DNA from: Aestuariivivens sediminicola
GTDB lineage: Bacteria > Bacteroidota > Bacteroidia > Flavobacteriales > Flavobacteriaceae
Length of the DNA: 64,000 nucleotides
Assembly: GCF_022662015.1 (NCBI RefSeq)
Contig: NZ_JAKMCM010000003.1
Coordinates: forward strand, 372,001-436,000
Direction of reading: 5' to 3'
The notes beneath the pieces were generated by a model. It was not told the DNA's origin. It did not search any database and worked only from the letters and a program-made list of their open reading frames with translations. Numbering within the stretch: position 1 is the first letter of the stretch; every line of letters starts with the position of its first letter. This document shows, one piece after another, positions 1,543 to 63,732 of the stretch. Made by a program: the position numbers and the translations under genes.

Positions 1543-1576
1543 GAACTGTCATCAATCAAACTACAGCAGTTTTCCA

Positions 1577-1606
1577 AAACGCCCGGCACACTCGTGTTGG
1601 GCGTTT
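1577..1606. terminator. Bidirectional terminator between convergent genes
   Basis: A 13-bp stem with two G-U pairs (AAACGCCCGGCAC at 1577-1589, GTGTTGGGCGTTT at 1594-1606) and a 4-base loop. A-rich and T-rich flanks serve both directions. It partly overlaps the stop codon of recG (1605-1607). Confidence 0.8.
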
Positions 1607-3767: not shown

Positions 3768-3837
3768 ATAACTAAATTAATTCTTTTGAATGTATTATCA
3801 AGTGGCATTTTGGATTAAAGTTTGCTATATTCGAAGT

Positions 3838-5862: not shown

Positions 5863-6770
5863 AAGCACTGGTAATTTCAGGAGGTGGAAGTAAGGGCGCC
5901 TACGCGGGAGGTGTGGCGCAATACCTCATTCAAGAGATGGGGTACGAATATGATCTATTTTTAGGGACATCGACAGGCAGTTTGCTCGTACCCCATTTGG
6001 CTGCGGGAAAAATTGAGAAGTTATATCATATCTACACCAATGTTCAGCAGCATAATATTTTTAGCGTAAATCCCTTTATAATACGGAAGAAGGGTAAACG
6101 GGAGTTTGTTTCCATAGATTTTATCAATACGCTCTGGCAGTTCATTAAAATGAAACGCACTTTTGGTGAAAGCAAATCCTTAAGGAGACATATTAGAAAG
6201 AACTTCACACCCGAGGAATACCATGTTGTGAAAGACACCAAAGATGATGTCGTGGTCACGGTCTCAAATTTATCCAGAAATAGGGTCGAATATAAGTCCA
6301 TAAAGGAATTTACCTATGATGAATTCTGCGATTGGATCTGGATATCTTGCAATTATATCCCGTTCATGTCTCTGGTGAAAAAGAACGGTTTTGAGTATGC
6401 CGATGGTGGATTGGGCTGTGTGGTTCCCATTCGGGAGGCCATATTAAGAGGCGCGACTGAAGTTGATGCCATCGTTTTAGAATCGGAATCCATGGAATAC
6501 AACAAGATTCTGGGTAAAAATCCCTTTTCGCTTCTGATCAATCTTTTCGGTCACCTTTCCGATCAAATAGAGCGCAATGATATCACCATAGGAAAATTGG
6601 CCGCTAAGAATAACAATGTAAGACTGAACCTGTATTATACGCCATCTAAACTTACCGAGAACTCCCTGATTTTTAACAAAAAATTGATGACCTCATGGTG
6701 GCAGCAGGGATTTGATTATGCCAAAGACAAGCTGTCTCAGGCAAAGCACAATGAGTTACGAATCGATTAG
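5859..6770 (+). CDS. Patatin-like phospholipase
   Basis: A 303-residue lipid acyl hydrolase. The oxyanion loop GGGSKGAY lies at 8-15, the nucleophile elbow GTSTG at 36-40 (Ser38) and the dyad aspartate in DGG at Asp182, all expected for the Ser-Asp patatin fold. No signal peptide, so probably cytoplasmic or peripheral to the inner membrane. The start overlaps the aminopeptidase stop by four bases, so the two genes are co-transcribed. The stop overlaps the stop of the convergent gene at 6767. It may act in phospholipid turnover (inference); the substrate is not readable from the sequence. Confidence 0.9.
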   Translation: MKALVISGGGSKGAYAGGVAQYLIQEMGYEYDLFLGTSTGSLLVPHLAAGKIEKLYHIYTNVQQHNIFSVNPFIIRKKGKREFVSIDFINTLWQFIKMKRTFGESKSLRRHIRKNFTPEEYHVVKDTKDDVVVTVSNLSRNRVEYKSIKEFTYDEFCDWIWISCNYIPFMSLVKKNGFEYADGGLGCVVPIREAILRGATEVDAIVLESESMEYNKILGKNPFSLLINLFGHLSDQIERNDITIGKLAAKNNNVRLNLYYTPSKLTENSLIFNKKLMTSWWQQGFDYAKDKLSQAKHNELRID

Positions 6771-7288
6771 AATAAGTCGCGTATTTCCTCCTTGATAAAA
6801 GATAAAGCAGCATCACTTGGTGCACGACGCTCCATCATTTCAGTTAAGATAACCTCCCGAAGTTTATCTGCATTTTCCGTTTTTTTCAATAAGCTCGCCT
6901 TTCTAATCAACTGAATGGTAGCATTCTTTGCCGCTGAGATAATACTCCAGCATTTCTCACTGATATAGATTTGCTGGGCCAGATTGTGTTCAAACTCTTG
7001 TTCGATGGCCTGAATGAGTAAAGCCTCGTATTCCTCTTTATTTGAGGATGCAGGCACTACCCGGATGAGCAGTTTATTTGGTGAAATACGTTCCAGGTAC
7101 AAGGCCATTCTTTCATAGGCTTGCAAGCGCAGAGGAAGTGCCGTCACTTCTAAATCCTTTTTGAGTAAATAGCGTCTTCGGCCATCTTCATTTTTGGTGT
7201 GTTCCTTAAAAAAATAATAAGCTAAAATTCCAACCACCAGTGATGGAATCATAAACATAAATAAATCAACTACGCGATCGGCATCCAT
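6767..7288 (-). CDS. Conserved flavobacterial membrane-anchored protein, unknown function
   Basis: A 173-residue protein with one N-terminal transmembrane helix (about 8-27) followed by a charged, mostly helical cytoplasmic part, including the pattern LPLRLQAYERMALYLERI near 50-70. I recognise it as a recurring uncharacterised Bacteroidota protein but know no function. ATG at 7288. It is followed on the same strand, toward lower coordinates, by nothing, and its stop is interlocked with the patatin stop (6767-6770). The upstream gene on the same strand is the glutamate-synthase-like gene, 84 bases away, so they may share a transcript. Confidence 0.75.
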   Translation of the reverse strand: MDADRVVDLFMFMIPSLVVGILAYYFFKEHTKNEDGRRRYLLKKDLEVTALPLRLQAYERMALYLERISPNKLLIRVVPASSNKEEYEALLIQAIEQEFEHNLAQQIYISEKCWSIISAAKNATIQLIRKASLLKKTENADKLREVILTEMMERRAPSDAALSFIKEEIRDLF

Positions 7289-7372
7289 AGGCCTTTAATT
7301 TTTTAATTCATTAATTTTATTAATGCAAGAGCTCAATGTGCTCTTCTGTATGTTTCGCTTCTGTTCGGCATC

Positions 7373-8956
7373 TCAATTACCATCCAGAACAATCCTGTTG
7401 AGGTCCCTTTGGTAGTTACCTCCCAAATATACACAATCTTTTAGGTTTTGCATCCCATCGAAGGGGACCGGACTTTTGTCGTAAATATAGGTCTTATTCA
7501 GGGGTTTGGCTAAATTTTGATCGTCGACGTTCATTTCAATATCGGACATTCTAAACTGACAGGGATGCTCATAGCCTGCGGCATGCGTAATTTCTATCAA
7601 CTCTTTTCTAAAGGTTTTAAAATACTGTGCCAGCCGAATGGATTTTAAGTTAGGATCTATGCCATTTTGAAGCCATTTGCTTTGTGTCGCCACACCGCTG
7701 GGACAGCGATTGGTATGGCATACCTGGGCCTGAATGCATCCTATACTCATCATGGCTTCGCGGGCCACATTGATGCAATCTGCACCCATGGCGAAGGCCA
7801 TGGCTGCCTTAGCGGGGAATCCGAGTTTTCCACTGCCAATGAAAACGATTCGATCGGTAAGCCCTCTGTTCAAGAATACTCGGTATAAGTCGCTAAACCC
7901 ATATACCCAGGGCAGTGACACATGATCGGCAAAACTCGGAGGTGCCGCACCCGTGCCACCTTCACCACCGTCTATACTGATAAAATCTGGACCCTTCCCG
8001 GTGTGCTTCATGATATCTGCAAGCGCTTCCCATTCATCTAATTTTCCGATAGCCGCCTTTATGCCCACCGGCAATCCGGTTTCAGAGGCAATGGCCTCAA
8101 TAAAATCGACCATCTCCTGTACATTGGAAAAGGCCCTGTGATAAGGCGGCGATATCACATCTTTACCCACCTCAACACCCCTTATTTTGGCAATTTGTTT
8201 CGTTATTTTGGCCCCCGGCAGAACACCGCCCTTACCCGGTTTGGCCCCCTGGGACAATTTAATCTCTATGGCGCGAATAAAGGAATTGCCTTGCACAAGT
8301 TCTTTGAGCTTGTCCATTGAAAAATCACCCGCCTCATTACGCACCCCAAAGTATCCCGTTCCAAACTGGAAGATAACATCTGAACCATAGCTATGATAAG
8401 GCGACAGGCCGCCTTCACCGGTATTGTGAAAGGCGTGCGCCATTTTAACGCCTTTGTTAAGAGACGCAATGGCCCTGGCTGAAAGCGAACCGAAACTCAT
8501 GGCAGACACATTAATGACAGAGGCCGGACGATAGGGTCTTTTGCGCTTGTTGAACGCCCCCATTATTTTAGCACAGGGTAAAAAGGTTTTATCGATACTG
8601 TTAGGGTGATCGGCCTCTAATTTGAAGGGCATCATGGCATTGTTGATAAAAATATGGTGATGGGCATAGATGTCCTGATCCGTTCCAAACCCCTCATAGT
8701 TATTTTCTTTTTTGGCAGAAGCATAGATCCATCCTCGTTCAATGCGGTTAAAGGGCAACTCCTCTCTGTTATTAGCCACCAGATACTGACGCAGTTCGGG
8801 GCCAATTTTTTCAAGTAAGTACCGCAAATGACCTACAACAGGATAATTATGGATTATGGTGTGTTTGCGTTGTAAAAAAATATCCCTGATCCCGATGAGC
8901 ACTAAAATGATGATGACCCAGACCCACCAGGGCATATTTAAAAGATCTGCAAGCAT
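7373..8956 (-). CDS. FMN-binding glutamate synthase family protein, membrane-anchored
   Basis: A 527-residue protein with an N-terminal hydrophobic helix (about 8-25) and then the FMN/synthase barrel of the glutamate synthase large subunit. Visible elements: SAMSFGSLS (151-159), KPGKGGVLPGAKI (239-251), SIDGGEGGTGAAP (327-339) and a CxxxxxCxxxxC cluster motif at Cys407, Cys413 and Cys418, the pattern used for the 3Fe-4S cluster. It lacks the glutamine amidotransferase domain of true GltB, and no small-subunit gene is nearby. It may be an FMN oxidoreductase of unknown substrate. Starts 12 bases from the end of the M20 gene, so likely co-transcribed with it. Family sure, reaction unsure. Confidence 0.92.
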   Translation of the reverse strand: MLADLLNMPWWVWVIIILVLIGIRDIFLQRKHTIIHNYPVVGHLRYLLEKIGPELRQYLVANNREELPFNRIERGWIYASAKKENNYEGFGTDQDIYAHHHIFINNAMMPFKLEADHPNSIDKTFLPCAKIMGAFNKRKRPYRPASVINVSAMSFGSLSARAIASLNKGVKMAHAFHNTGEGGLSPYHSYGSDVIFQFGTGYFGVRNEAGDFSMDKLKELVQGNSFIRAIEIKLSQGAKPGKGGVLPGAKITKQIAKIRGVEVGKDVISPPYHRAFSNVQEMVDFIEAIASETGLPVGIKAAIGKLDEWEALADIMKHTGKGPDFISIDGGEGGTGAAPPSFADHVSLPWVYGFSDLYRVFLNRGLTDRIVFIGSGKLGFPAKAAMAFAMGADCINVAREAMMSIGCIQAQVCHTNRCPSGVATQSKWLQNGIDPNLKSIRLAQYFKTFRKELIEITHAAGYEHPCQFRMSDIEMNVDDQNLAKPLNKTYIYDKSPVPFDGMQNLKDCVYLGGNYQRDLNRIVLDGN

Positions 8957-8968
8957 GAGGCGTTAATT

Positions 8969-10240
8969 TTAATGATTCAAATAGTCCATCGTAATCTGGG
9001 TAAAGGCTTTAACACCGAGTAATAATCCGCTTTCATCAATGTAAAAGTCCGGCGTATGATGAGGAAAGGCCTGTGTACTTCCCTTCGCCATTCCACCTAA
9101 ATAAAAATAAAAACCGGGAACCAGTTCTTGAAAATAAGAAAAGTCCTCTCCAATAGTTTCTGCTTTAATTTGTTGCACATGGGCATCACCTGCTACTTTT
9201 TTTAATGAAGGCAACATAGCGGCGACCAACTGGTGATCGTTGTAGGTAATTGCCGTTTCGTTGGAAAATGAAATACTCGCCGTACCTCCATAGGCCTTGG
9301 CAATGGTTTCCGTCATTTCGGTCATACGCCTTATGATATGCGACTTCATTTTGGGATCCAAAGTCCTCACCGTACCAATGAGTTCGGCTGATTCCGGAAT
9401 GATATTAAATCGAACACCACTGGTTATTTTACCTACTGAAATGACGGCAGCTTCGTTAATTAATTCGCTTTCACGACTCACTATGGTTTGAAGCCCGTCT
9501 ATGATCTTTGCAGAAATAAGGATGGGATCGATACCGTTCCAGGGTTCCGAACCGTGGGTCTGTTTGCCGTTTACCTCTATTACGAAGCGTTCTACAGCTG
9601 CCATGGCACCCCCCGGTTTATAATGGATTTCACCAACAGGAACACCCGAGCGTATGTGCAAACCGAAAATAGCGTCTACTTTTGGATTGTCCAGCACACC
9701 TTCTTTAATCATAAGCCTGGAACCGCCTTCTTCACCCGGTGGGGCCGTTTCTTCTGCAGGTTGAAAAATGAATTTTACCGTACCTTTAATCTTGTCCTTG
9801 TTTTTCGATAATACTTCAGCAACACCCATTAATATCGCCGTATGGGCATCGTGTCCACAAGCGTGCATAACACCGGTTTCCGTACCTAAAAATGTTGCTG
9901 TAACTGTCGATTTAAATGGGAGATCGTTGCGCTCCGATACAGGCAGGGCATCCATATCGGCACGGAGGGCAATGACTTTACCGGGCATGTCTCCATGCAA
10001 CAGACCAACCACCCCGGTGTGGGCGACACCCGTCTGTACATCGAGGCCTAAAGCCCTGAGATGTGCTGCGACTTTCGCTGCTGTTTTGAACTCTCTGTTG
10101 GATAACTCCGGATTTTCATGAAAATGACGACGCCATTCGATAACCTTTGGTTCTATGTCCTTGTATGCTTCCTCTGTGAGGGTTTGTCCATAAATACTAA
10201 TCGTTCCAATAAGAATAAAAAAGGGCAAAATGTGTTTCAT
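8969..10240 (-). CDS. M20 family amidohydrolase (M20D type), exported
   Basis: A 423-residue metallo-amidohydrolase with a signal peptide ending near IYGQ (residue 19). Catalytic core: RADMDALP at 93-100, CGHDAH at 128-133, PAEE at 161-164, GLHIRSG and the C-terminal PHHTPDF, which supply the dinuclear metal ligands. Cys128 in the CGHD motif is typical of the M20D branch (N-acyl amino acid, hippurate or IAA-amino acid hydrolases). It probably releases amino acids from N-acyl conjugates in the periplasm. It is the first gene of a leftward run with the glutamate-synthase-like gene 12 bases downstream. Substrate not determinable. Confidence 0.92.
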   Translation of the reverse strand: MKHILPFFILIGTISIYGQTLTEEAYKDIEPKVIEWRRHFHENPELSNREFKTAAKVAAHLRALGLDVQTGVAHTGVVGLLHGDMPGKVIALRADMDALPVSERNDLPFKSTVTATFLGTETGVMHACGHDAHTAILMGVAEVLSKNKDKIKGTVKFIFQPAEETAPPGEEGGSRLMIKEGVLDNPKVDAIFGLHIRSGVPVGEIHYKPGGAMAAVERFVIEVNGKQTHGSEPWNGIDPILISAKIIDGLQTIVSRESELINEAAVISVGKITSGVRFNIIPESAELIGTVRTLDPKMKSHIIRRMTEMTETIAKAYGGTASISFSNETAITYNDHQLVAAMLPSLKKVAGDAHVQQIKAETIGEDFSYFQELVPGFYFYLGGMAKGSTQAFPHHTPDFYIDESGLLLGVKAFTQITMDYLNH

Positions 10241-11002
10241 AATTCGTGATCTCTTACAATATATTTCGCTTAAAGATATTCAAAATTTATCGGTAGTCTC
10301 GAAAAGATTCTAAAGATTGACAGGACCTCCCATGATATGGGTAAATTTTTCTTCCTTTTGGAATGGATCTCTCCGATCTCGGGTAGAAGGACCGTATGAA
10401 GACCGGGACTGCAACCGCCGTTATATGTCGTACGGCAAGAAATGCGGTCAGGTATGAGCAACTGTATCAAAGAACCTTAAAGAGTTGTTCCAGCGTCAAC
10501 ATGTTTTGATGAGGTTGTAACTACCAATTTTCAGAAATATAAGCAGGCTATTCTAAAATTGTCCTGTGAATTTTCAAAATTCACAGGACAATTTTGAAAA
10601 TTCACAGGACAATTTCAACGATTCATGCTTACAAAATTTTAAAGTTTTAGGTACAAAACACATGGTTTATAACCGGACGTTTTATGGCTTATGGCTACGC
10701 GATGCTTATGTGATATCTCTGCGTGGTTACCCGGGCTTTTACAATTCGTTCATGTAACGCTTTGATTAAAAGTTTTACGCTTGTGAGGACCATAGCGTGG
10801 GAGGTAAAAAATATGAGGTCCTATATAGGGACTTTACATAGATTTGGATTATGATAAGTAACAGGCCAAGTTGCACAGGCATTCTAAATCGGTACATTTT
10901 TTTAAATACAGATCACCCTTCAAGATTGTTTATAATTATTCATAAATAGACTTATTTAAAAGCGGAACATTAGTTATTTTCACTTCTTAAAATGAAAACG
11001 AT
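10241..11002. other. 762-base gap without a convincing gene
   Basis: Lies between two divergent genes. It holds a strong inverted/direct repeat at 10555-10615 and two short segments with related GC-richer words (AACCGCCGTTATATG near 10412 and AACCGGACGTTTTATG near 10671). Open frames of 63-66 codons occur on both strands, but one is built from the repeat and neither has a recognisable fold, promoter or start context. The last 100 bases are AT-rich and should contain the uvrD promoter. It could be the remains of a lost gene or a mobile fragment. Confidence 0.6.
10555..10615. repeat. 20-bp perfect inverted repeat plus a third direct copy
   Basis: The arm AAAATTGTCCTGTGAATTTT (10555-10574) is followed after one base by its exact reverse complement (10576-10595). 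After one more base a second copy of the right arm follows (10597-10615, 19 bases), giving a 21-base period. DNA here could extrude a cruciform, or RNA could form a 15-20 bp hairpin. It lies between divergent genes, so a terminator role is not expected. Confidence 0.9.
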
Positions 11003-13357
11003 TTGAAGGAGTTTTTAGATCAGTTAAATGAAGCGCAGTTGGCACCCACCATGCAGATTGATGGGCCCATGATTGTAATTGCAGGTGCCGGCTCAGGAAA
11101 AACACGCGTATTAACGTTTCGAATAGCCTACTTGATGAGTAAGGGGATAGATCCTTTTAATATTTTGGCATTAACCTTTACGAACAAGGCAGCTCGTGAG
11201 ATGAAGGAACGCATTGCGGGTATAGTGGGTTCCAGTGAGGCAAAGAATCTATGGATGGGGACATTCCATTCTGTCTTTGCCAAGATATTACGAATTGAAG
11301 CCGATAAGTTAGGATACCCGAGTAATTTTACCATTTATGATACACAGGATTCCGATCGTTTAATTGCATCCATTATCAAAGAAATGCGACTTGACAAGGA
11401 TATTTACAAGTACAAGCAGATCCGTTCTCGCATTTCATCCTATAAAAACAGTTTGATTACCGTTCGTGCTTATTTTCAAAATCCCGAACTCATTGAGGCC
11501 GATACTATGGCACGACGGCCCAGGATGGGAGATATATATAAAGCCTATGTTGAGCGGTGTTTTAAGGCTGGTGCCATGGATTTCGATGATTTATTGTTAA
11601 AAACAAATGAATTGCTAACCCGTTTTCCTGAAGTCCTGGCGAAATATCAGAATCGGTTTAAATATATTCTGGTCGATGAGTACCAGGACACCAACCATTC
11701 GCAATATTTAATTGTGAGAGCATTATCCGATAAATTCCAGAACATTTGCGTTGTGGGCGACGATGCACAGAGCATCTATGCTTTCCGTGGTGCCAATATC
11801 AATAACATTCTCAATTTTCAAAAAGATTATGACGATGTCAGTGTTTACCGGCTTGAACAAAATTACCGATCTACCAAAAATATCGTTAACGCAGCCAATT
11901 CCATTATTGATAAGAACCAGACGAAGCTGGACAAGATTGTTTGGACGGCCAATGAAGAGGGTTCAAAAATAAAGGTAAACCGCTCATTAACTGATAGTGA
12001 CGAAGGACGCTATGTAGCCAGTACAATTTTCGAGAATAAGATGCAGCATCAGCTTAAGAATAGCGATTTTGCTGTTTTATACCGTACAAATGCGCAATCA
12101 CGCGCCATAGAGGATGCCTTGCGAAAACGTGATATAAAATATCGTATTTACGGCGGTCTTTCCTTTTACCAAAGAAAAGAAATAAAGGATGTCTTGTGTT
12201 ATCTGCGTCTTGTTTTGAATCCGGCAGACGAAGAAGCCCTGAAACGGGTCATTAATTTTCCGGCACGTGGTATCGGACAGACCACGATCGATAAACTGAT
12301 CGTTGCCGCGAATGGTTATGATAAGTCTATTTTTGAGATCATGGAGAACATCGACAGCCTGGATTTGAAAATTAACAGTGGTACAAAAACGAAATTACAG
12401 GATTTTGTGACGCTTATTAAAAGTTACCAGGTGATGAATCAGTCCGCCGACGTATTTGAGTTGGCCGAACATGTCACCAAAACCAGTGGGTTGATAAGGG
12501 AGTACAATAAGGACGGTACACCTGAAGGTGTTACCAGGATGGAAAATATTGAGGAACTCCTGAATGGAATGAAGGATTTTGTTGAGGGACAGAAGGAGTT
12601 GGTAGACTCTACGGGATCTCTGGCCGAATTTCTGGAAGATGTGGCCCTGGCCACGGATTTAGATAATGACAAGGACACAGGAGATAGTGTTGCTTTAATG
12701 ACCATTCATTTGGCGAAGGGTTTGGAATTCCCCTATGTTTATATCGTCGGTCTGGAGGAGGATTTATTCCCCAGCGCCATGAGCATGAACACTCGAAGTG
12801 AGTTGGAGGAGGAACGACGCCTATTTTATGTCGCATTAACACGAGCTGAAAAGCAGGCCTATTTAACCTATGCGCTGTCGAGATACCGTTGGGGAAAATT
12901 GATTGATTCGGAACCGAGTCGTTTTATAGAGGAGATTGATGAAACCTATCTGGACGTTGTAACACCCATTGAAGAGCGTCGATTTAATCCTATGTTGGAT
13001 GCCGATATTTTTGGAGATGTGCTTCCTGATAAAGGGCGAAGTTCAACAGCTCATACCTTCAGATATAAACCTGCGAAAAGCCGTAACATAAAAAGTGGGG
13101 ACTCTAAGAAGACATCCGGGGAATTTAAGCTGCGTACACCTAAACATTTAAAGCCGGTTTCCAAAGTAAGTGGACATTCAAATGTAGTCGCTACTGATCT
13201 GGCCATTGGGAATCGGGTAGAGCACCTGCGTTTTGGAACGGGCGAGGTGCTGAAAATTGAAGGGACGGGTCCCGATACGAAAGCCGAAATTAAGTTCAGT
13301 CATGGTGGCGTAAAAAAGTTGTTATTACGCTTTGCCAAACTCAAGGTCATTGGTTAA
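11003..13357 (+). CDS. uvrD: UvrD/PcrA-type superfamily 1 DNA helicase
   Basis: A 784-residue 3'-5' helicase for excision repair and clearing of recombination or transcription obstacles. Q motif LNEAQ at 8-12, Walker A AGAGSGKT at 27-34, DEYQDTN at 225-231, then the QNYRS, YRTNAQSR and VALMTIHLAKGLEF motifs, and a C-terminal Tudor-like tail (about 736-784) as in PcrA. The only usable start is TTG at 11003: an in-frame TAA lies at 10988, and the next ATG (11054) would remove the Q motif. The stop is interlocked with the convergent gene (TTAA at 13354-13357). Very sure of family; uvrD versus pcrA naming is arbitrary. Confidence 0.95.
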   Translation: MKEFLDQLNEAQLAPTMQIDGPMIVIAGAGSGKTRVLTFRIAYLMSKGIDPFNILALTFTNKAAREMKERIAGIVGSSEAKNLWMGTFHSVFAKILRIEADKLGYPSNFTIYDTQDSDRLIASIIKEMRLDKDIYKYKQIRSRISSYKNSLITVRAYFQNPELIEADTMARRPRMGDIYKAYVERCFKAGAMDFDDLLLKTNELLTRFPEVLAKYQNRFKYILVDEYQDTNHSQYLIVRALSDKFQNICVVGDDAQSIYAFRGANINNILNFQKDYDDVSVYRLEQNYRSTKNIVNAANSIIDKNQTKLDKIVWTANEEGSKIKVNRSLTDSDEGRYVASTIFENKMQHQLKNSDFAVLYRTNAQSRAIEDALRKRDIKYRIYGGLSFYQRKEIKDVLCYLRLVLNPADEEALKRVINFPARGIGQTTIDKLIVAANGYDKSIFEIMENIDSLDLKINSGTKTKLQDFVTLIKSYQVMNQSADVFELAEHVTKTSGLIREYNKDGTPEGVTRMENIEELLNGMKDFVEGQKELVDSTGSLAEFLEDVALATDLDNDKDTGDSVALMTIHLAKGLEFPYVYIVGLEEDLFPSAMSMNTRSELEEERRLFYVALTRAEKQAYLTYALSRYRWGKLIDSEPSRFIEEIDETYLDVVTPIEERRFNPMLDADIFGDVLPDKGRSSTAHTFRYKPAKSRNIKSGDSKKTSGEFKLRTPKHLKPVSKVSGHSNVVATDLAIGNRVEHLRFGTGEVLKIEGTGPDTKAEIKFSHGGVKKLLLRFAKLKVIG

Positions 13358-14322
13358 CGTACCATATAGACTGAATTGATATGCCCGTCACCATCATATT
13401 CCTTCACCGGATTTTCCGGATCGACCAGCCATTCACCGTCAACTATAAATTTATAATGGTGTTTCCCTCCGGAAAGTCGTATGGTGTAGCGCCAGCCTTC
13501 CTCGGTTTTTTCCATTTTGAGTTCGTCTTCAGACCAATTATTAAATGACCCGGCCAATATGACCCGGCTCGCGTTATCGTGGTTGGGCAGAAAAAAGGTG
13601 ATCGCTTTTTTGATATCAATTACAGAATTGTACTCATCAAATTCATTTTTAACCTTGTTGTCGTTATGTGGATCCTCCATCCAGTGTCCATCAACAATGA
13701 ATCTGTAGGTATAGACTCCCGGTTTCATGTTTAAGGTGAGTTCCCAGCCATCTGCCACCTTATTCATTTTAAATAAAGAGGGATGCCATTTATTAAAGCT
13801 CCCCGCCACAATTACCGCTTCGGCGCTCGTATGGCCTTTTAGCTTAAAATCCGCATTACCGTTGATGTCCGGGTAGGCCATGTACATTTTCAAGTTATAA
13901 ATACCTCCGAGTGGTAATCCGTATTTCGTAGCCTTGGCAATGTTAGGGTCATGCCGCGACGGTTCAGCCCAATAGGCATTATTGATAACGTATTTGAATT
14001 CCCAGGAAAAAGCATCCGAAAAGGCGCTTATGTTTTTCCGCAGTTCATAGATAGTGTCATTAATCTTGGTCATGCGCCATGCCTTCATGGACCAATCATT
14101 GAACTCGCCCGACACCACTACATTCTCAATATCTAAATCGTTAAAATCCATTTTCAGTCTGGAAGCGTCCTTGGTCACTTTATCATAGTCCCGACGGTCG
14201 AAAGTGAACACCACCTCATCACCTTCAAGGCGGTAACCTTTGAACGGGCTGTCCTGTGAAAGCACCATTAGGGGTACGGTCAAAAGGATGAATATTAGGG
14301 TATGTAATCTCAAGCTATTCAA
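13354..14322 (-). CDS. Exported protein of three tandem glycogen-binding-type E-set domains
   Basis: A 322-residue protein with a signal peptide (cleavage near MVLSQ, residue 23). Three repeats of the AMPK/CBM48 E-set fold are visible: VVVSGEFNDW (68-77), VIVAGSFNKW (170-179) and VILAGSFNNW (254-263), the last two ending in YRFIVDGHWMEDP and YKFIVDGEWLVDP. There is no catalytic domain, so it probably binds an alpha-glucan or another protein outside the cytoplasm. The start is TTG at 14322, inside a TTGA overlap with the stop of the protease-like gene, so the pair is translationally coupled. No glycogen or starch gene is in the window. Domain call sure, ligand inferred. Confidence 0.85.
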   Translation of the reverse strand: MNSLRLHTLIFILLTVPLMVLSQDSPFKGYRLEGDEVVFTFDRRDYDKVTKDASRLKMDFNDLDIENVVVSGEFNDWSMKAWRMTKINDTIYELRKNISAFSDAFSWEFKYVINNAYWAEPSRHDPNIAKATKYGLPLGGIYNLKMYMAYPDINGNADFKLKGHTSAEAVIVAGSFNKWHPSLFKMNKVADGWELTLNMKPGVYTYRFIVDGHWMEDPHNDNKVKNEFDEYNSVIDIKKAITFFLPNHDNASRVILAGSFNNWSEDELKMEKTEEGWRYTIRLSGGKHHYKFIVDGEWLVDPENPVKEYDGDGHINSVYMVR

Positions 14323-56063: not shown

Positions 56064-56094
56064 TTGAATTGATAATTGCGAATACTTCAATTTG
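56064..56094 (+). promoter_or_regulatory. Likely promoter of the cysteine-synthase-fold gene
   Basis: TTG at 56064-56066, 20 bases, TCAATTTG at 56087-56094 (one mismatch to TAnnTTTG). ATG 26 bases on. Confidence 0.5.
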
Positions 56095-56119
56095 CTTTTA
56101 GAAACAATAAAGCGAACTA

Positions 56120-57157
56120 ATGAAACATAGCAACCAAGTTTATGATAGCGTCCTAGATTTAGTTGGTCAGACACCTTTAGTAAGACTTAATAAATTTACG
56201 GCGGACTTCAAAGGGAGTTACTTTGCGAAAGTAGAATCTTTTAACCCGGGCAACTCATCAAAAGATAGAATAGCACTTTACATTATTGAACAAGCTGAAA
56301 GGCAGGGTATTTTAAAGCCTGGAGATACGATTATAGAAACAACCTCTGGCAATACCGGTTTTAGCATTGCCATGGTGAGTATCATAAAGGGATACAATTG
56401 TGTTTTGGCAGTAAGTTCTAAATCCTCAGCCGACAAGATCGATATGCTTAAAACCATGGGGGCGAAGGTCTATGTTTGCCCCGCTCATGTAAGTGCAGAC
56501 GATTCGCGCTCCTATTATCAGGTTGCCAAAAGATTGCACGATGAAATAAAAGGTTCGGTCTATATCAATCAGTACTTTAACGAATTGAATATTGATGCGC
56601 ATTACCACAGTACAGGCCCTGAAATATGGAAACAAACTCAGGGAAAAATCACGCATCTGGTAGCTTGCAGTGGCACAGGGGGAACCATTTCCGGTACGGC
56701 CCGCTATCTTAAGGAACAAAATCCGAACGTGAAGGTCATTGGCGTAGACGCTTTTGGATCGGTGATAAAAAAATATCACGAAACCAAAGAGTTTGATGAA
56801 AAGGAAATTTACCCTTATCGCATTGAAGGATTAGGGAAAAATTTAATTCCTTCAGCTACAGATTTTGATGCCATTGATGCGTTCATAAAAGTTACGGATG
56901 AAGATAGTGCGCACACGGCTCGGACAATTGCAAAAACTGAAGGGTTATTCGTAGGGTATACCTCCGGAGCTGTAATGCAAGCCGTAAAACAATTAAATGA
57001 TCAGGGCGAATTTAAAAAGGGAGATCAAGTTGTTGTCATTTTTCCAGATCATGGCTCGCGGTACATGAGTAAAATTTACAGCGATAAATGGATGAGTGAA
57101 CAAGGTTTCTTCGATAGTTCTAACGAGGTTCCTGAAAAGATTCAATATATCAAATAA
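56120..57157 (+). CDS. Cysteine-synthase-fold PLP enzyme, candidate cysteate synthase
   Basis: A 345-residue fold-type II PLP enzyme. Schiff-base Lys48 is in [11 protein letters not shown], the substrate loop TSGNTG at 75-80, and the phosphate cup GTGGT at 185-189. It has no C-terminal CBS regulatory domains or heme site. Usual annotations are cysteine synthase or cystathionine beta-synthase. The next gene, 227 bases on, is an alpha-oxoamine synthase, an order shared with sulfonolipid systems, where a fold-type II enzyme makes cysteate from phosphoserine and sulfite. A cysteate role is therefore inferred from context; ordinary O-acetylserine sulfhydrylase or CBS activity is the alternative. 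Confidence 0.9.
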
Positions 57158-57277
57158 GAAATGCTATTTTCAACGCAAGAATGACCCGTATCTCTTGTGC
57201 GTCAAGCATTTTATTGCATTGTGATACATCTTCATGATTTGTCTTTTAAAAAATTATGCATAGTTCATTTAAATACT

Positions 57278-57285
57278 TAATTTTG
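57278..57285 (+). promoter_or_regulatory. Promoter -7 box of the alpha-oxoamine synthase gene
   Basis: Exact TAATTTTG about 100 bases before the ATG at 57385. The leader holds two short competing hairpins (57324-57348). Confidence 0.35.
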
Positions 57286-57384
57286 CAAATTGAAACAATG
57301 TGTGTTAAGCCGATTTCTGATTTTTGTCACGTAGCGACAATTAGTGACTTTACCTGGTATTAACCGCATTAACATTATATATAG

Positions 57385-58644
57385 ATGAAGGATTTATTCG
57401 ATAAAATTTATAAAGATAAAGGACCTTTAGGTAAATGGGCTTCGCAGGCTGAGGGATATTATGTTTTTCCGAAATTGGAAGGAGAAATTTCAAACCGGAT
57501 GAAATTCCAGGGGAAGGATGTGATCACATGGAGTATAAATGATTATCTGGGATTGGCAAATCACCCTGAAGTACGCAAAGTCGATGCAGAGGCTGCAGCG
57601 CAATATGGTTCGGCATATCCGATGGGCGCCAGAATGATGTCCGGTCACACGGATCTTCATGAGAAACTTCAGGATGAACTGGCTGCCTTTGTTAAGAAAG
57701 AGGCGGCATATTTGCTGAATTTTGGCTATCAGGGGATGGTTTCTACTATTGATGCCTTAGTGGCCAAGGACGACATTATTGTTTACGACGTTGATGCACA
57801 TGCCTGTATTATAGATGGCGTGCGCCTGCATATGGGAAAAAGATTTACCTACAAGCACAATGATGTTCAAAGTCTTGAAAAAAATCTTGAACGCGCTACG
57901 AAAATGGCAGAGCAAACCGGAGGTGGTATTTTGGTGATCTCTGAGGGTGTTTTTGGAATGCGGGGTGAGCAGGGACGGTTAAAAGAAATTGCAGCACTCA
58001 AAAAGAAATATAATTTCAGACTTTTTGTTGATGATGCTCATGGCTTTGGAACCTTGGGTGCGACCGGCGCAGGTGCCGGTGAGGAGCAGGGTGTACAGGA
58101 CGATATCGATGTGTATTTTGCAACTTTCGCGAAATCTATGGCAAGTACCGGAGCATTCATTGCCGGAGACCAGGAGATTATCGATTATTTGAAATACAAT
58201 TTAAGATCTCAGATGTTCGCTAAGTCACTACAGATGCAACTGGTGGTTGGGGCTTTAAAAAGATTGGAGATGTTAAGAACAATGCCGGAGCTAAAACAAA
58301 ATCTCTGGAAAATTGTTAATGCACTTCAATCCGGATTGAAGGCCAGAGGATTCGATATCGGAACCACACAAAGCTGTGTTACCCCAGTGTATCTAAAAGG
58401 AAGTATTCCTGAAGCTATGGCGCTAGTCAAGGACTTAAGAGAAAATTACGGAATATTCTGTTCTATAGTAGTTTACCCTGTAATACCTAGAGGATTAATT
58501 TTACTTAGAATGATTCCAACTGCCACACATACACTCCAGGATGTTGAGGAAACTTTAGATGCTTTCGACGCCATAAGAGATCGACTTGATAATGGTACTT
58601 ACAAGCGTTTGTCCGCGGCAGTGATGGCAGCTATGGGGGAATAA
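57385..58644 (+). CDS. Alpha-oxoamine synthase: cysteate acyltransferase or serine palmitoyltransferase
   Basis: A 419-residue PLP enzyme that condenses an amino acid with acyl-CoA or acyl-ACP. SINDYLGLANH near 50-60, VDAHACIIDG with His139 stacking on PLP, VDDAHG with Asp217/His219 and the Schiff-base lysine FAKSMASTG (Lys250) define the KBL/SPT/BioF family. Members in Flavobacterium make capnine from cysteate (cysteate fatty acyltransferase), others make 3-ketosphinganine from serine. The upstream cysteine-synthase-fold gene favours the capnine route; 2-amino-3-ketobutyrate ligase is less likely because threonine dehydrogenase is not nearby. Followed by a terminator. Confidence 0.9.
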   Translation: MKDLFDKIYKDKGPLGKWASQAEGYYVFPKLEGEISNRMKFQGKDVITWSINDYLGLANHPEVRKVDAEAAAQYGSAYPMGARMMSGHTDLHEKLQDELAAFVKKEAAYLLNFGYQGMVSTIDALVAKDDIIVYDVDAHACIIDGVRLHMGKRFTYKHNDVQSLEKNLERATKMAEQTGGGILVISEGVFGMRGEQGRLKEIAALKKKYNFRLFVDDAHGFGTLGATGAGAGEEQGVQDDIDVYFATFAKSMASTGAFIAGDQEIIDYLKYNLRSQMFAKSLQMQLVVGALKRLEMLRTMPELKQNLWKIVNALQSGLKARGFDIGTTQSCVTPVYLKGSIPEAMALVKDLRENYGIFCSIVVYPVIPRGLILLRMIPTATHTLQDVEETLDAFDAIRDRLDNGTYKRLSAAVMAAMGE

Positions 58645-58672
58645 CATTGAAAGCACATACAGATGATATTGC

Positions 58673-58701
58673 AACCGATTGGTCTTTCAATCGGTTTTTT
58701 T
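58673..58701 (+). terminator. Terminator after the alpha-oxoamine synthase gene
   Basis: A perfect 9-bp stem (AACCGATTG at 58673-58681, CAATCGGTT at 58688-58696) and a T run to 58701. It overlaps the stop of the convergent GNAT-like gene (58700-58702). Confidence 0.85.
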
Positions 58702-59821
58702 ATTTTAAATTTTTCCTAAAGGTCTTACGACGTCTGAATACAACCGGAGAAAAGTGTTTCCAAATCTGATGTATGGCTATATTATCCTCAAGTTCCGGTG
58801 TCCTGTAACAGGTTACAATTCCTTTTGCCTTAAACACTTTGTAATATTCATTAAAAATGACCGCATGTACCCCTTTATGCTGATAATCCGGACGGATACC
58901 TATAAGATAGAAGACTGCATCTTTGCTGTGTTTTTTAGCCTTTAGAATCTGCAGAAAACCAAAAGGATACAGCTTTCCCTTAATTTTTTGAATGGCTTTT
59001 GAAAAACCGGGCATAACAATGGCAAATCCAATAAGGTTGTCTTCGTTATCTACAATAAATTTAATGTATTCAGGATTTACAAAACTTATAAATTTCTTTT
59101 TAAAATAGGCCTTTTGAATATCGTTTATGGCTACAAATGAGGATAATGAGGCATAGGTTTCATTAAATAGATCGAACATTTTATCCACATAAGGTATAAC
59201 TTCTTTTGTTTTTGTAAAATTCAAGGCCTTAATTTGGTAACGGCGCTTTATAATCTCATTGGCCTTTGAAAATGTGTCAGGGTTTACATTTTTAAAATCG
59301 AATTTACTTTCGATATAGCCCTTTTCTATTTTATAATTTGCTGCCTCATAGTGCTTTACATAATAGGGATGGTTGTACCAGGTAATCATCGGGCCGATAG
59401 AATCAAATCCTTCCGTAAGGACGCCGACCTTGTCTAAATTTGAAAATCCGACAGGGCCTTCAACGTAATCCAACTGGTTGGCAGTTCCAATTTCTTCTAC
59501 TTTTTCAAGCAAGGTCTTCGATACTTCAAAATCATCAATAAAATCAAACCAACCAAAACGCATCTTTCGAACCTGCTGCTCATTAATTTCAATAAAGTTG
59601 GTTATGGCGGCAATTCTCCCTACAATGACCTCATCGCGGTAAGCCAGAAACAATCGGGCTTCTGCATCGTTAAAAACCGGATTTTCGCTTTTGTCAAAGG
59701 TTTTCATCTCCTGACTAATAATTGGTGGGACCCAATATTTCGAATCCTTGTACAACGAAAAAGGAAACATTACAAATGCCTTCAAATCCTTCCTGCTGTC
59801 TACTTCTTTAAGTGTAACCAT
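58700..59821 (-). CDS. GNAT-fold acyltransferase-like protein
   Basis: A 373-residue protein recurring in Bacteroidota, often next to sphingolipid-type genes as I recall. Features: FPFSLYKDSKYWVPPIISQEMKTF at the start (a conserved family opening), ARLFLAYRDEVIVGRIAAI, YVEGPVGFSNLDKVGVLTEGFDS and, in the C-terminal GNAT-like half, YLIGIRPDYQHKGVHAVIFNE with RxxYQHKG as the likely CoA-binding loop. Its function is not established. Next to a lipid-base synthase, an N-acyltransferase role (capnine or sphinganine acylation) is plausible but unproven. ATG at 59821, 9 bases after the transporter stop: same operon. Confidence 0.8.
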   Translation of the reverse strand: MVTLKEVDSRKDLKAFVMFPFSLYKDSKYWVPPIISQEMKTFDKSENPVFNDAEARLFLAYRDEVIVGRIAAITNFIEINEQQVRKMRFGWFDFIDDFEVSKTLLEKVEEIGTANQLDYVEGPVGFSNLDKVGVLTEGFDSIGPMITWYNHPYYVKHYEAANYKIEKGYIESKFDFKNVNPDTFSKANEIIKRRYQIKALNFTKTKEVIPYVDKMFDLFNETYASLSSFVAINDIQKAYFKKKFISFVNPEYIKFIVDNEDNLIGFAIVMPGFSKAIQKIKGKLYPFGFLQILKAKKHSKDAVFYLIGIRPDYQHKGVHAVIFNEYYKVFKAKGIVTCYRTPELEDNIAIHQIWKHFSPVVFRRRKTFRKNLK

Positions 59822-59830
59822 ATCCAGTAT

Positions 59831-60832
59831 TTAATCGAAATCTATAGAATCGCGTCTCTGTTTTTTTATCGTCGACCCCGATGTTTTATTCCCTTTATTA
59901 CGCCTCGATTTACGTCTGCCCCCGTCCATAACAGAAGCACCATTATCTATCTCCTCTTCTTCTTTGTCCTGATGAAAATCGAAACGATACGAGGCCCCAA
60001 AGTTGACACTAAACACCGATGGCGTATCTTTGGTATTAAAGGTGAGCGCCGTATCCAACTGAAAATTCGCATTCCATAGATAAGCCCCGCCAACCCGGAA
60101 CAGGTTATCTGCATAAAAATCGCTTTTAATACCTTGGGTTTCTCCAAAAATAACCCATTGCGGATCGAAAGAATGGGTAAGGGTCAGAATATATTGAAAA
60201 TCAGATTGATCTGTACCTATCCTATCTTTTATGAGGTTCAATACGAACACCCATCCACCGGAAAAATTATTTTGTGTTGCCAACATGACCTTTGGACTGA
60301 ATCCTTCAATGCCCGATGCGGTATATGGATTGTATTTTGTATCGTAGTTTGCTCCGACATATACTGAAACAGCAGGAATTAAAGAACGCCACTTAAATCG
60401 ATGGTTGGCTTTCCAACTATACAGATTGGGCTTGTCATCCGCATTTTTATACGGATCATAAATTAAGTATTTTGCCCCCAGAGCAACATATTTAAAATTA
60501 GAACGATCTTCCTCAAAAGGAATGCTCGAAAAATAGGTCTTCGTATCATTCTGGTAGGTCCCCTCCACGTTAAGTTCCAATTGTTCAAAAAATAACCCGT
60601 AGCGGGCGGCAAAGTCGACCCCAAAACCTGAAACTTCATTGCGTAATGGCGGCGTACGTTTTTCCTTTAGGATAAAAGGACCAACCTCGAATTGCAGAAC
60701 ATTGGTTCCAACGGAAAAAGCACTCCTGGAAACTCCCGGTCTGTTCGAGTTTATAACATCCGTGTATTGGGCCTGCAACAGGTTAAAAATGAATAACAAG
60801 ATTAAGGTTGGTGTAGATTGGATAGGCTTCAT
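59831..60832 (-). CDS. Outer-membrane channel/transporter, MetA-pathway phenol type
   Basis: A 333-residue protein with a signal peptide (to LQAQ, residue 22) and alternating amphipathic strands, the pattern of the PF13557 outer-membrane beta-barrel group (often labelled transporter). The NSNRPGVSRSAFSVGTN opening is typical. The last 45 residues are highly charged (EEEEIDNG, GGRRKSRRNKGNK), an unusual tail. It lies 9 bases ahead of the GNAT-like gene and is its first gene in the operon. It might move lipids or small hydrophobic molecules (inference). A TATATTTG box (minus) lies at 60914-60907. Confidence 0.82.
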   Translation of the reverse strand: MKPIQSTPTLILLFIFNLLQAQYTDVINSNRPGVSRSAFSVGTNVLQFEVGPFILKEKRTPPLRNEVSGFGVDFAARYGLFFEQLELNVEGTYQNDTKTYFSSIPFEEDRSNFKYVALGAKYLIYDPYKNADDKPNLYSWKANHRFKWRSLIPAVSVYVGANYDTKYNPYTASGIEGFSPKVMLATQNNFSGGWVFVLNLIKDRIGTDQSDFQYILTLTHSFDPQWVIFGETQGIKSDFYADNLFRVGGAYLWNANFQLDTALTFNTKDTPSVFSVNFGASYRFDFHQDKEEEEIDNGASVMDGGRRKSRRNKGNKTSGSTIKKQRRDSIDFD

Positions 60833-60914: not shown

Positions 60915-60992
60915 GATATTTTATACTTTTTTTATCATTTATAAACGGTTTTTAAGGCCGCAGAATTGTATTTTTACACAAAATATAGAGTT

Positions 60993-61277
60993 ATGCTACA
61001 AGAGGCTTCTGTGACGGGTTTTGTAAGAACGCTGCTTATTATTCTGCTTATCTATTTCGGTATAAAAATAATCGGGCGCCTGCTTACACCGTTTTTAATG
61101 AAATATGTTTCCAAAAAAGCAGAACAAAGATTTGGTGATCAATTTGGTCAATTTCAAAATAGAGGACAACGCGAAAAACCTGCAAAAGAAGGCGAAGTGA
61201 CCATAGATAAAATGCCAAAGACAAAAGCATCCAATAAAGATGTTGGGGACTATGTGGATTACGAAGAAATTGATTAA
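60993..61277 (+). CDS. DUF4834 family membrane protein
   Basis: A 94-residue protein with one transmembrane helix (about 7-30: FVRTLLIILLIYFGIKIIG), an RL-rich juxtamembrane part and a charged tail ending KDVGDYVDYEEID, the conserved DUF4834 terminus. The ATG at 60993 is preferred; an in-frame TTG at 60966 lies next to a TATTTTTA promoter-like box. It precedes YfhO by 31 bases, so they are probably one operon. Function unknown. Confidence 0.85.
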   Translation: MLQEASVTGFVRTLLIILLIYFGIKIIGRLLTPFLMKYVSKKAEQRFGDQFGQFQNRGQREKPAKEGEVTIDKMPKTKASNKDVGDYVDYEEID

Positions 61278-61308
61278 TTTGTCCACCGCGTAGTTTTAAA
61301 ATAGTTGT

Positions 61309-63732
61309 ATGTCGTTTACATTAAAAAAGATACTACCCCACGTAGTGGTTGTTCTGGGGTTTATATTACTTTCCTTAACGTATTTTAATCCGGTTTTAAA
61401 AGGACAGTCTATTTTCCAAAGCGATATCATGCAGTATATAGGTATGTCTAAGCAGCAATCCGACTTCAGGGAAGCTACAGGAGACGAAACCTATTGGACC
61501 AATAGTGCCTTCGGAGGCATGCCTACGTATCAATTAGGAGCGAAATACCCTCATAATTATATTAAAAAGCTCGATTTAGCGCTTCGCTTTTTACCGCGCC
61601 CGGCCGATTATTTGTTTTTATACCTCTTAGGGTTTTATATTTTTCTGCTCGTTCTTAAAGTGGATTACAGGCTCTCTGTTCTGGGAGCCATAGCTTTTGG
61701 TTTTTCTACGTATCTGATCATCATATTGGGTGTTGGCCATAACAGTAAGGCACATGCAATTGCTTACATGCCCTTAGTGTTGAGTGGTATTGTGTTGACC
61801 TTTCGAAGAAACTATGTTGCAGGATTTTTGTTAACTGCATTGGCAATGGCTCTGGAGTTGGTGGCCAATCATTTCCAAATGACCTATTATTTATTACTCC
61901 TGGTCCTGGTTTTAGGTATTGCTTATTTGGTCGATGCCTACAAAAAGGGCCTGTTAAAGCATTATTTTAAATCTCTGGGGGTATTAACCCTGGCTGTAGT
62001 TCTGGCCCTGGCCTTGAACGCCTCCGGAATTCTGGCCACCCAGGAATATGTCAAGGAAAGCTCTCGTGGAACAAGCGAACTCACCATAAACCCGGACGGC
62101 ACCACGAAGGAAATCTCCAGTGGCTTGGATAAAGCATATATCACGCAGTACAGTTATGGTTTTTTTGAGTCCTTAAACTTGTTCATTCCCAGATTGACTG
62201 GTGGCGGCAACGGGGAAGAAATGGGCAAGGGATCCCATACCTATGAGGCCTTTAGAAAACTAGGTGCTTCACCGAGTCAGGCCTTAGAGGCATCCAGACA
62301 TGCACCACTGTATTGGGGCGATCAACCCATAGTGGAGGCACCGGCCTATGTTGGCGCGGTTGTTATTTTCCTGTTTGTTATTGGATTATTTCTTGTTAGA
62401 GGCCGATTGAAATGGTGGTTGGTTGGCGGTACACTTTTATCCTTATTACTGTCCTATGGTAAGAATCTGGAATTTTTAACCGACTTCTTCATTTATAATG
62501 TGCCACTGTATAATAAGTTTAGGGCCGTAACTTCAATTCAGGTTATTTTGGAGTTATGTTTGCCCGTAATGGCTGTTTTCGCCCTGGCCCGCCTGTTTAA
62601 TGGAGAATTAAAGAAGGACGAAAAATTAAAAGCCCTGAAGTATGCGGTTTTCATTACCGGCGGCATTGCAGTTTTATTGCTGTTGTTTAAATCTTCCTTC
62701 GACTTTGCCGGTGTGAACGATGCCTTTTATCGTCAAAACTATGGTCAGGATTTTGTGGATGCCCTCAAGGCCGACAGAAGGGCCGTATTTTCATCTGATA
62801 CCTTGCGAACCTTACTATTGGTACTGGTTTCGGCTGGGCTTATATTCGCTTATATAACAAACAAATTAAAAGAGCATTGGGTAATAGTGGCCTTTGCTAT
62901 ACTTATTGGCATCGATTTAATTGGTGTCGACAGACGTTATGTTAACAATGATGATTTTGTGGCTTCCAAACAGGTAAAGCACCCCTATCAGATGCATGCG
63001 GCCGATAAAGAAATTGCTCGGGACACCACACATTTCAGAGTGCTAGATCTTACCTCGTCCGGTGCCAGAGCCTCCTATTTCCACAATTCTTTAAACGGTT
63101 ATCACGCCGCCAAGCTCAGACGGTATGAAGATGTATACGATTTTTACATTACCAAAAATCACATGGACGTTTTAAACCTGTTGAATACCAAATACATTAT
63201 AGCTCAGGATGAAAATGGAAACCCGGTGCGTTATCTCAATGAGGAGGCGAACGGAAATGCGTGGTTCATCAGGGAATTTAAAACAGTGAATTCGGTCAAT
63301 GAGGAAATTAAAACTTTAGACAGCCTGGACAATAAGAATATTGCGATTTTAAATAGTGAGGAATTCGGGGATCGTTTTGCGAACAATGGATATCCAAAGT
63401 ATGTGGTCGATTCATTGGCGACTATAGAACTGATCGATCATCAGCCGAATTATCTGAAGTACCGATCTCATAATAATCATGACGGATTTGCCGTGTTTTC
63501 AGAAATATTCTATCCAAAAGGTTGGAAAACCTATATTGACGGACAGAAAGCAGATCATATTCGCGTCAATTATACCTTAAGAGGAATGGAAATACCAAAG
63601 GGAAAACATGTCATCGAATTCAAATTCGACCCGGAGGTTGTAAAAACCGGAAGTAAAATTACCTTAGCCAGTTCGGTTTTATTTGTCGTTCTGTTTTTTG
63701 TTGGGGTTTTATATAAATTTAAAAGGCAATAA
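61309..63732 (+). CDS. YfhO family membrane protein (GT-C-like)
   Basis: An 807-residue polytopic protein. A lumenal loop follows the first helix (QSIFQSDIMQYIGMSKQQSDF, containing the SD catalytic-type pair of GT-C enzymes), then about 11-12 helices and a large periplasmic C-terminal domain (about 540-780: HFRVLDLTSSGARASYFHNSLNGYHAAKLRRYED). YfhO-type proteins glycosylate lipoteichoic acid or other surface polymers in Gram-positives; in Bacteroidota the acceptor is unknown. It is followed by a family 4 glycosyltransferase, which supports an envelope glycan role (inferred). Confidence 0.9.
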   Translation: MSFTLKKILPHVVVVLGFILLSLTYFNPVLKGQSIFQSDIMQYIGMSKQQSDFREATGDETYWTNSAFGGMPTYQLGAKYPHNYIKKLDLALRFLPRPADYLFLYLLGFYIFLLVLKVDYRLSVLGAIAFGFSTYLIIILGVGHNSKAHAIAYMPLVLSGIVLTFRRNYVAGFLLTALAMALELVANHFQMTYYLLLLVLVLGIAYLVDAYKKGLLKHYFKSLGVLTLAVVLALALNASGILATQEYVKESSRGTSELTINPDGTTKEISSGLDKAYITQYSYGFFESLNLFIPRLTGGGNGEEMGKGSHTYEAFRKLGASPSQALEASRHAPLYWGDQPIVEAPAYVGAVVIFLFVIGLFLVRGRLKWWLVGGTLLSLLLSYGKNLEFLTDFFIYNVPLYNKFRAVTSIQVILELCLPVMAVFALARLFNGELKKDEKLKALKYAVFITGGIAVLLLLFKSSFDFAGVNDAFYRQNYGQDFVDALKADRRAVFSSDTLRTLLLVLVSAGLIFAYITNKLKEHWVIVAFAILIGIDLIGVDRRYVNNDDFVASKQVKHPYQMHAADKEIARDTTHFRVLDLTSSGARASYFHNSLNGYHAAKLRRYEDVYDFYITKNHMDVLNLLNTKYIIAQDENGNPVRYLNEEANGNAWFIREFKTVNSVNEEIKTLDSLDNKNIAILNSEEFGDRFANNGYPKYVVDSLATIELIDHQPNYLKYRSHNNHDGFAVFSEIFYPKGWKTYIDGQKADHIRVNYTLRGMEIPKGKHVIEFKFDPEVVKTGSKITLASSVLFVVLFFVGVLYKFKRQ

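Follow-up and report, generated by a model that had tools for sequence, protein, structure and literature searches.

The 64,000-nt stretch of the Aestuariivivens sediminicola genome analysed here (hereafter the window; its host genome measures 3.65 Mb and is 100% complete) probably contains a sulfonolipid locus at positions 56120–60832, in which the CapA–CFAT pathway (CFAT, cysteate fatty-acyltransferase) would be completed by a protein of the bacterial ceramide synthase (bCerS) family serving as N-acyltransferase, a judgement that applies to the pathway as a whole. In the proposed scheme, CapA would make cysteate, and CFAT would condense it with an acyl thioester to give 3-ketocapnine. A reductase encoded elsewhere, for which a short-chain dehydrogenase/reductase (SDR) on contig C16 is a candidate, would then convert 3-ketocapnine to capnine, and the bCerS-family protein encoded at 58700–59821 would add an amide-linked fatty acid to capnine, yielding the sulfonolipid. 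A first-pass annotation of this DNA had suggested that a GNAT-like protein could N-acylate capnine, and this suggestion gains support: we infer the role from membership in the bCerS family, from neighbouring genes and fusions that tie the family to serine palmitoyltransferase (SPT), and from co-occurrence with CFAT. An open reading frame (ORF) check recovered all four ORFs of that annotation at the coordinates it gave. The locus comprises:

56120–57157, + strand: CapA, predicted cysteate synthase, a fold-type II pyridoxal phosphate (PLP) enzyme with Lys48, 345 aa (NF053679, PDB 9k2p).
57385–58644, + strand: CFAT/CapB/SulA, predicted cysteate fatty-acyltransferase, with PLP-binding Lys250 and with Lys280, the counterpart of SulA Lys281, 419 aa (PDB 28eh, 7u7h).
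58673–58696, + strand: predicted terminator-like hairpin followed by a T run, between the convergent units (consensus scan).
58700–59821, − strand: bCerS-family tandem-GNAT protein of subclade A1, proposed capnine N-acyltransferase, with Lys131 as candidate head-group residue, 373 aa (YghO match, fold, neighbours, fusions, co-occurrence).
59831–60832, − strand: outer-membrane beta-barrel of the PF13557 family, first gene of its unit with the bCerS-family gene, 333 aa (Pfam, 98.3 bits).

The assignments of the two predicted PLP enzymes are supported by close homology to characterised enzymes. CapA exceeds the cut-off of the NCBIfam CapA equivalog NF053679 (647.9 versus 600 bits), and its best solved relative is PDB 9k2p (6.3e-152). 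PALP is the sole Pfam family above cut-off, in agreement with the earlier description of an enzyme devoid of CBS and heme domains, and the Lys48 of its NSSKDR motif was found as described. Among the 25 NCBIfam families listed of 36, the models for cysteine synthase and for cystathionine synthase fall below their cut-offs for CapA. Across 296 genomes of the phylum, searched alike for CapA, CFAT, SPT and the bCerS family, CapA passes the NF053679 cut-off in 30, every one belonging to the window's own family.

The second enzyme is a member of Pfam Aminotran_1_2 and has Lys250 as its PLP lysine, again as first annotated. When aligned with characterised relatives, it is closest to CFATs: its best PDB match is 28eh, ‘Cysteate-C-fatty acyltransferase’ (9.8e-215), 7u7h follows at 2e-171, and SPT reaches merely 5e-72. 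We take 7u7h, whose PDB title reads 7-keto-8-aminopelargonate synthetase-like enzyme, to be SulA of Alistipes finegoldii. In HMMER alignments, Lys280 of CFAT faces a lysine in 7u7h and an alanine in the SPT 8guh. The active sites of SulA and SPT are described in passages of PMC9304779 as differing at Lys281, which is an alanine in SPT. These enzymes come from the same superfamilies as those of a sphingolipid-base locus, in which the synthase would be an SPT, to which the window CFAT is homologous, preceded by an ordinary cysteine synthase. Such a reading is very improbable, and we rejected it on the curated cut-offs and the SulA lysine: CFAT scores 300.7 bits against the 640 demanded by the SPT equivalog NF047600 (a cut-off that just 10 of the 296 genomes reach at all), CapA passes its own cut-off where the cysteine synthase models among those 25 families do not, and the lysine stands where SPT has alanine. 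The curated equivalog score, the crystal-structure relatives and the SulA-specific lysine thus support the initial proposal that the pair makes cysteate and then 3-ketocapnine, steps that are known biology and ordinary for the group. One accompanying statement did not survive: cysteate in Alistipes had been ascribed to a cysteine-synthase-fold enzyme, whereas, in the part of PMC10191378 consulted, the enzyme used by Alistipes and Odoribacter is homologous to the cysteate synthase of archaea and is not CapA.

The protein encoded at 58700–59821 is barely visible to general family models. Pfam Acetyltransf_1 stays slightly below its cut-off (19.9 versus 20.7 bits), NCBIfam returned no family match and searches of PDB sequences gave weak matches only. 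Its AlphaFold model (pLDDT 90.3, pTM 0.88) matches tandem GNATs in Foldseek (5kf1, 1.1e-13; 7q3a, TMq 0.65), so that a tandem GNAT fold can be predicted with confidence. The family itself was recognized through a profile built from 26 homologues, to which YghO of E. coli B aligns over positions 2–373 with 325.6 bits and an hhalign probability of 100. Among 150 ORFs of at least 100 aa in two E. coli stretches, YghO is the sole match at E ≤ 100, and it retains 13 of the 15 invariant and 10 of the 12 near-invariant family residues that could be placed. With clade-specific profiles, YghO scores 371 bits for clade B, 206 for clade A and 190 for clade C; it is approximately 36–38% identical to SPT-linked family members (BLASTP) and 22% identical to the window protein, whose own nearest relatives in named loci, from Aestuariivivens, are 84% identical. 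Passages of PMC9386255 enter both yghO and Caulobacter CC_1154 under one gene name, aca, and PMC11324152, likewise seen in part, names CC_1154 CerS. Judged by sequence, the window protein is therefore a member of the bCerS/CerS/aca family, through full-length homology via YghO and, for CC_1154, through this listing.

Elsewhere in the phylum, members of this family can adjoin SPT-like genes or be fused to them. Thus 48 of the 53 evaluable low-scoring members among the matches listed lie 17–274 bp from an SPT-like gene on the same strand, a count drawn from 150 GNAT matches in 134 genomes and from 149 listed SPT genomes, 31 of the 84 low-tier matches not being judgeable. For one of those 31 (L047, in genome G106), no SPT match was found within the 13 kb read. 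In three genomes, the SPT-like enzyme and the bCerS-family protein are fused in one ORF, of 795, 820 and 830 aa, respectively (L171, L172 and L173). According to passages of PMC11334938, which rely on earlier work, the genes for SPT, bCerS and CerR lie apart from one another in sphingolipid-producing Bacteroidota; in the genomes searched here, those for SPT and the bCerS family do not follow this pattern. An epimerase-type protein 24–30% identical to E. coli CerR occurs near SPT at five loci (three on the same strand, two divergent), which is weak evidence as such proteins are common, and a myo-inositol-1-phosphate synthase is present in one SPT–bCerS locus (L043). Around unlinked members of the intermediate score class, the 10 neighbours scanned were housekeeping or unrelated genes with few in common between loci, so that their context gives no functional hint.

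The co-occurrence of the family with both synthases was then counted over the 296 genomes. A genome was taken as CFAT-positive when it had a match at E ≤ 2e-114 with at least 47% identity (108 genomes), and as SPT-positive when its best NF047600 E-value was below approximately 1e-110 outside the CFAT-positive genomes or below 1e-130 within them; ‘SPT’ in these counts means SPT-like, given how few genomes pass the curated cut-off. A full-length-profile bCerS match at E ≤ 1e-30 was found in 285 of the 296 genomes. By Fisher tests, which ignore shared ancestry, members are enriched where either synthase exists (281 of the 287 genomes that have at least one of the two versus 4 of the 9 that have neither; 3e-6) and copies of two or more are enriched where both exist (32 of these 45 genomes versus 41 of the 242 that have a single synthase; 1.4e-12). 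Of the 63 CFAT-only genomes, 59 have a member of clade A or C, as do 72 of all 108 CFAT-positive ones when A2 is included; the remaining CFAT genomes lack one. The phylogeny gave two subclades of clade A:

Subclade A1, which holds the window protein (38 sequences, support 0.944: 29 from the window's family, 6 from f2 and 3 from f23), comes from CFAT-positive genomes in 38 of 38 cases.

Subclade A2 (25 sequences, support 0.928) comes from SPT-positive genomes in 25 of 25 cases, 21 of them SPT-only and four with both enzymes.

The clade A tree includes all 66 members at 240 bits or more, the duplicate rows L038 and L178 having been dropped, and its three basal sequences are all from CFAT-only genomes. 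Clade A also occurs in 21 CFAT-negative genomes, which initially counted as contrary evidence; that objection was dropped, as these sequences form the separate subclade A2. Clade C is also confined to CFAT-positive genomes among those searched, with 34 of the 108 CFAT-positive and none of the 188 CFAT-negative genomes (33 genomes by a score of at least 297 bits, and G178, at 184.6 bits, by tree position). A single bCerS member is present in 27 of the 30 genomes of the window's family and is, in those 27, the sole candidate from the bCerS family.

Gene order is also conserved around the window protein. The barrel gene adjoins the GNAT gene in all 29 loci of the window's family (L009–L037) and CFAT does so in 22 of them. 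Of 80 related loci taken from named records, 79 have the barrel and 69 have CFAT; 60 preserve the entire order of seven genes, a degree of conservation that argues against chance. Four of the 11 loci lacking CFAT end no more than 1.6 kb past the gene (L083, L101, L102 and L126).

Several of these observations nevertheless weigh against capnine as the substrate, in addition to the two reservations attached to the counts above. The flanking POP, DUF4834 and YfhO genes are conserved as well, so that adjacency to CFAT is partly plain synteny, and CFAT is located elsewhere in 7 of the 29 family loci; we consequently dropped adjacency taken alone as proof of an N-acyltransferase. CapA and CFAT might then make capnine while the bCerS-like protein N-acylates some other amine or long-chain base, such as that made by a second alpha-oxoamine synthase cluster, the proximity of CFAT being inherited. 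The equal conservation of the flanking genes and the displaced CFAT genes favour this possibility, as do the tightest linkage being to the barrel (79/80) rather than to CFAT (69/80) and the further cluster of alpha-oxoamine synthase, SDR and acyltransferase that the genome holds on contig C18. We consider it unlikely, however, since the C18 cluster carries its own bCerS-family member, since CFAT is present throughout the genomes of the window's family, whereas no genome there passes for SPT and 27 of 30 have a single bCerS member, and since A1 is confined to CFAT-positive genomes, A2 and clade B going with SPT. Other points bear on the assignment of capnine N-acylation to the bCerS family more generally. 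N-acylation by YghO itself is ascribed by homology alone. The window genome has a second member of the family, on C18. Four CFAT-only genomes (G041, G053, G064 and G158) have no full-length clade A or C member, G064 and G158 giving weak partial bCerS matches (61 and 71 bits), so that N-acylation there must either fall to another enzyme or not take place. As many as 32 of the 45 genomes with both synthases have neither clade; a single enzyme may handle both lipids, or the task may fall to other clades. Finally, clade C is unlinked to CFAT: 13 of its 39 matches share a contig with it, the nearest at 32.6 kb.

One of these four CFAT-only genomes, G053, retains the POP–CapA–CFAT order (L177, C1:249000–266000), and the bCerS-like gene and the barrel are absent from that stretch. 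A profile search found no bCerS-family member in the whole genome, and this organism may make free capnine only.

A residue that could accompany the division between CFAT and SPT lies at position 131 of the bCerS-family protein. It is a lysine in all 38 A1 sequences and a lysine or arginine in 26 of 32 clade C sequences; A2 has no lysine among 25 sequences (one arginine, two histidines), the three basal sequences show K, H and A, and none of 21 clade B sequences has a lysine, arginine or histidine there. A basic residue at this position largely tracks the CFAT/SPT split. The position was chosen by scanning all positions of 83 sequences for charge differences, with 37 loci added later and only partly independent, and this choice by scanning, a further point on the contrary side, makes it a lead rather than a proof. 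It is about an even call whether sulfonolipids are finished by dedicated bCerS-family members, clades A1 and C being separately tied to cysteate-derived bases and the basic residue 131 perhaps recognizing the sulfonate.

The reduction of 3-ketocapnine would be carried out by an enzyme from outside the locus. As first reported, no short-chain reductase lies among these genes, and KdsR-type SDRs are encoded elsewhere in the genome: one on C3 (306.2–306.6 bits) and one on C16 (265.5 bits), both below the curated 400. No clear homologue of the E. coli B CerR was found in the genome, the best match scoring 30.1 bits over a partial stretch. Matches to the C16 protein (G000:C16:211214–212005) at E ≤ 1e-30 occur in 57 of the 60 family genomes, a count that includes its own genome and also G324, where identity is only 33%; CFAT was searched for in a minority of these genomes. 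The C16 protein is our best guess for the 3-ketocapnine reductase. The order of the last two steps could also be reversed, the bCerS-like protein acylating 3-ketocapnine rather than capnine, as passages of PMC9304779 and PMC11324152 propose an N-acylation-first order for Caulobacter ceramide. We regard this variant as rather unlikely: the genome has KdsR-type SDRs instead of a convincing CerR homologue, and accounts of the capnine pathway, as far as the consulted parts of PMC11211663 and PMC10191378 go, place reduction before N-acylation. The C3 SDR gene is overlapped by 8 bp by that of a third alpha-oxoamine synthase (L007, G000:C3:22361–26419, positions 1381–3460, + strand), which is marginally above the BioF cut-off (429.2 versus 426.45 bits).

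With regard to the remaining features, CapA and CFAT form a unit on the + strand with a gap of 227 bp between the genes, and the barrel and GNAT genes form one on the − strand with a gap of 9 bp. The convergent arrangement initially described is thus retained, but the ‘one operon’ is not, as the terminator-like hairpin separates two convergent units. Terminator-like sites numbered 9 in the consensus scan against a mean of 4.0 expected by chance; promoter-like sites were near chance (21 versus a mean of 15.6), and PADLOC gave no match. The barrel is modelled with 12 strands (pLDDT 70.5) and resembles FapF (1.3e-11) and the COG4313 channel 4rl8 (5.5e-8) in Foldseek; its profile retrieved nothing from PDB sequences at E ≤ 1. 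These are general barrel likenesses, so that a role in lipid movement is a guess. Beyond the barrel, genes for DUF4834 and a YfhO-type membrane protein are divergent (60966–63732), and both accompany the barrel in 77 of the 80 loci.

Other clusters were met in the same genomes. The one on C18 of the window genome (L040, G000:C18:104000–123000, positions 3037–13823, − strand) encodes an alpha-oxoamine synthase of 432 aa, a FemAB-like protein, an SDR, the second bCerS-family protein, 26% identical to that of the window, an MMPL exporter and three radical SAM proteins; it may be a further sphingolipid-like pathway, one whose tailoring is unusual. CFAT also occurs within long open frames of 1158 aa (L175, 2145–5576, G254), 1113 aa (L176, 4571–7897, G219) and 1171 aa (G179). 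The first of these has the order AMP-ligase, carrier protein, CFAT, which fits an acyl carrier protein-bound chain (acyl-ACP) as donor. In G064, which has no full-length bCerS member, CFAT belongs to a run of genes on one strand that also encodes an SDR, a glyoxalase-like protein, an AP_endonuc_2 protein and a GMC oxidoreductase (L186, 5178–11534).

Passages of PMC12045153 describe sulfonolipids as a dominant class of lipids in the outer membrane of F. johnsoniae, and PMC9304779, in the part consulted, credits them with supporting gliding, triggering multicellular development in choanoflagellates and affecting inflammation. The N-acylation step becomes testable once a specific gene, from a family with biochemical precedent, is put forward for it and, if the assignment is true, genomes could separate producers of capnine, of which G053 may be one, from producers of N-acyl sulfonolipids. 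No named capnine N-acyltransferase was met in the titles, abstract openings and passages searched, a scope that lay mostly outside subscription journals, so that the enzyme may already be in print; that N-acylation should belong to a bCerS-family branch tied to CFAT is, in any case, new to us.

Compared with known systems, the locus shares the cysteate acyltransferase with its SulA-specific lysine, and likewise the cysteate synthase, with CapA/CapB/CapC of Capnocytophaga and Chryseobacterium and with SulA of A. finegoldii. Those accounts, in the parts of PMC11211663, PMC10191378 and PMC9304779 consulted, give the N-acylation of capnine without a named enzyme, whereas the window adds a bCerS-family neighbour and has no reductase in the locus. 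With the tandem GNATs 5kf1 (glucosamine N-acetyltransferase), 2wpw (clavulanic acid) and 7q3a (MAB_4324), the fold is common at 9–13% identity. The SPT–bCerS pairs of Bacteroidota place the same acyltransferase family beside an alpha-oxoamine synthase; theirs is SPT-like, in some cases with a CerR-like epimerase, and that of the window is a CFAT with no reductase nearby. Finally, YghO of E. coli B belongs to the same family over its full length, with 13 of 15 invariant residues kept, and CC_1154 of Caulobacter through the aca listing, but the window protein falls in a different clade, at 22% identity to YghO, and the partner of its subclade is CFAT, not SPT.

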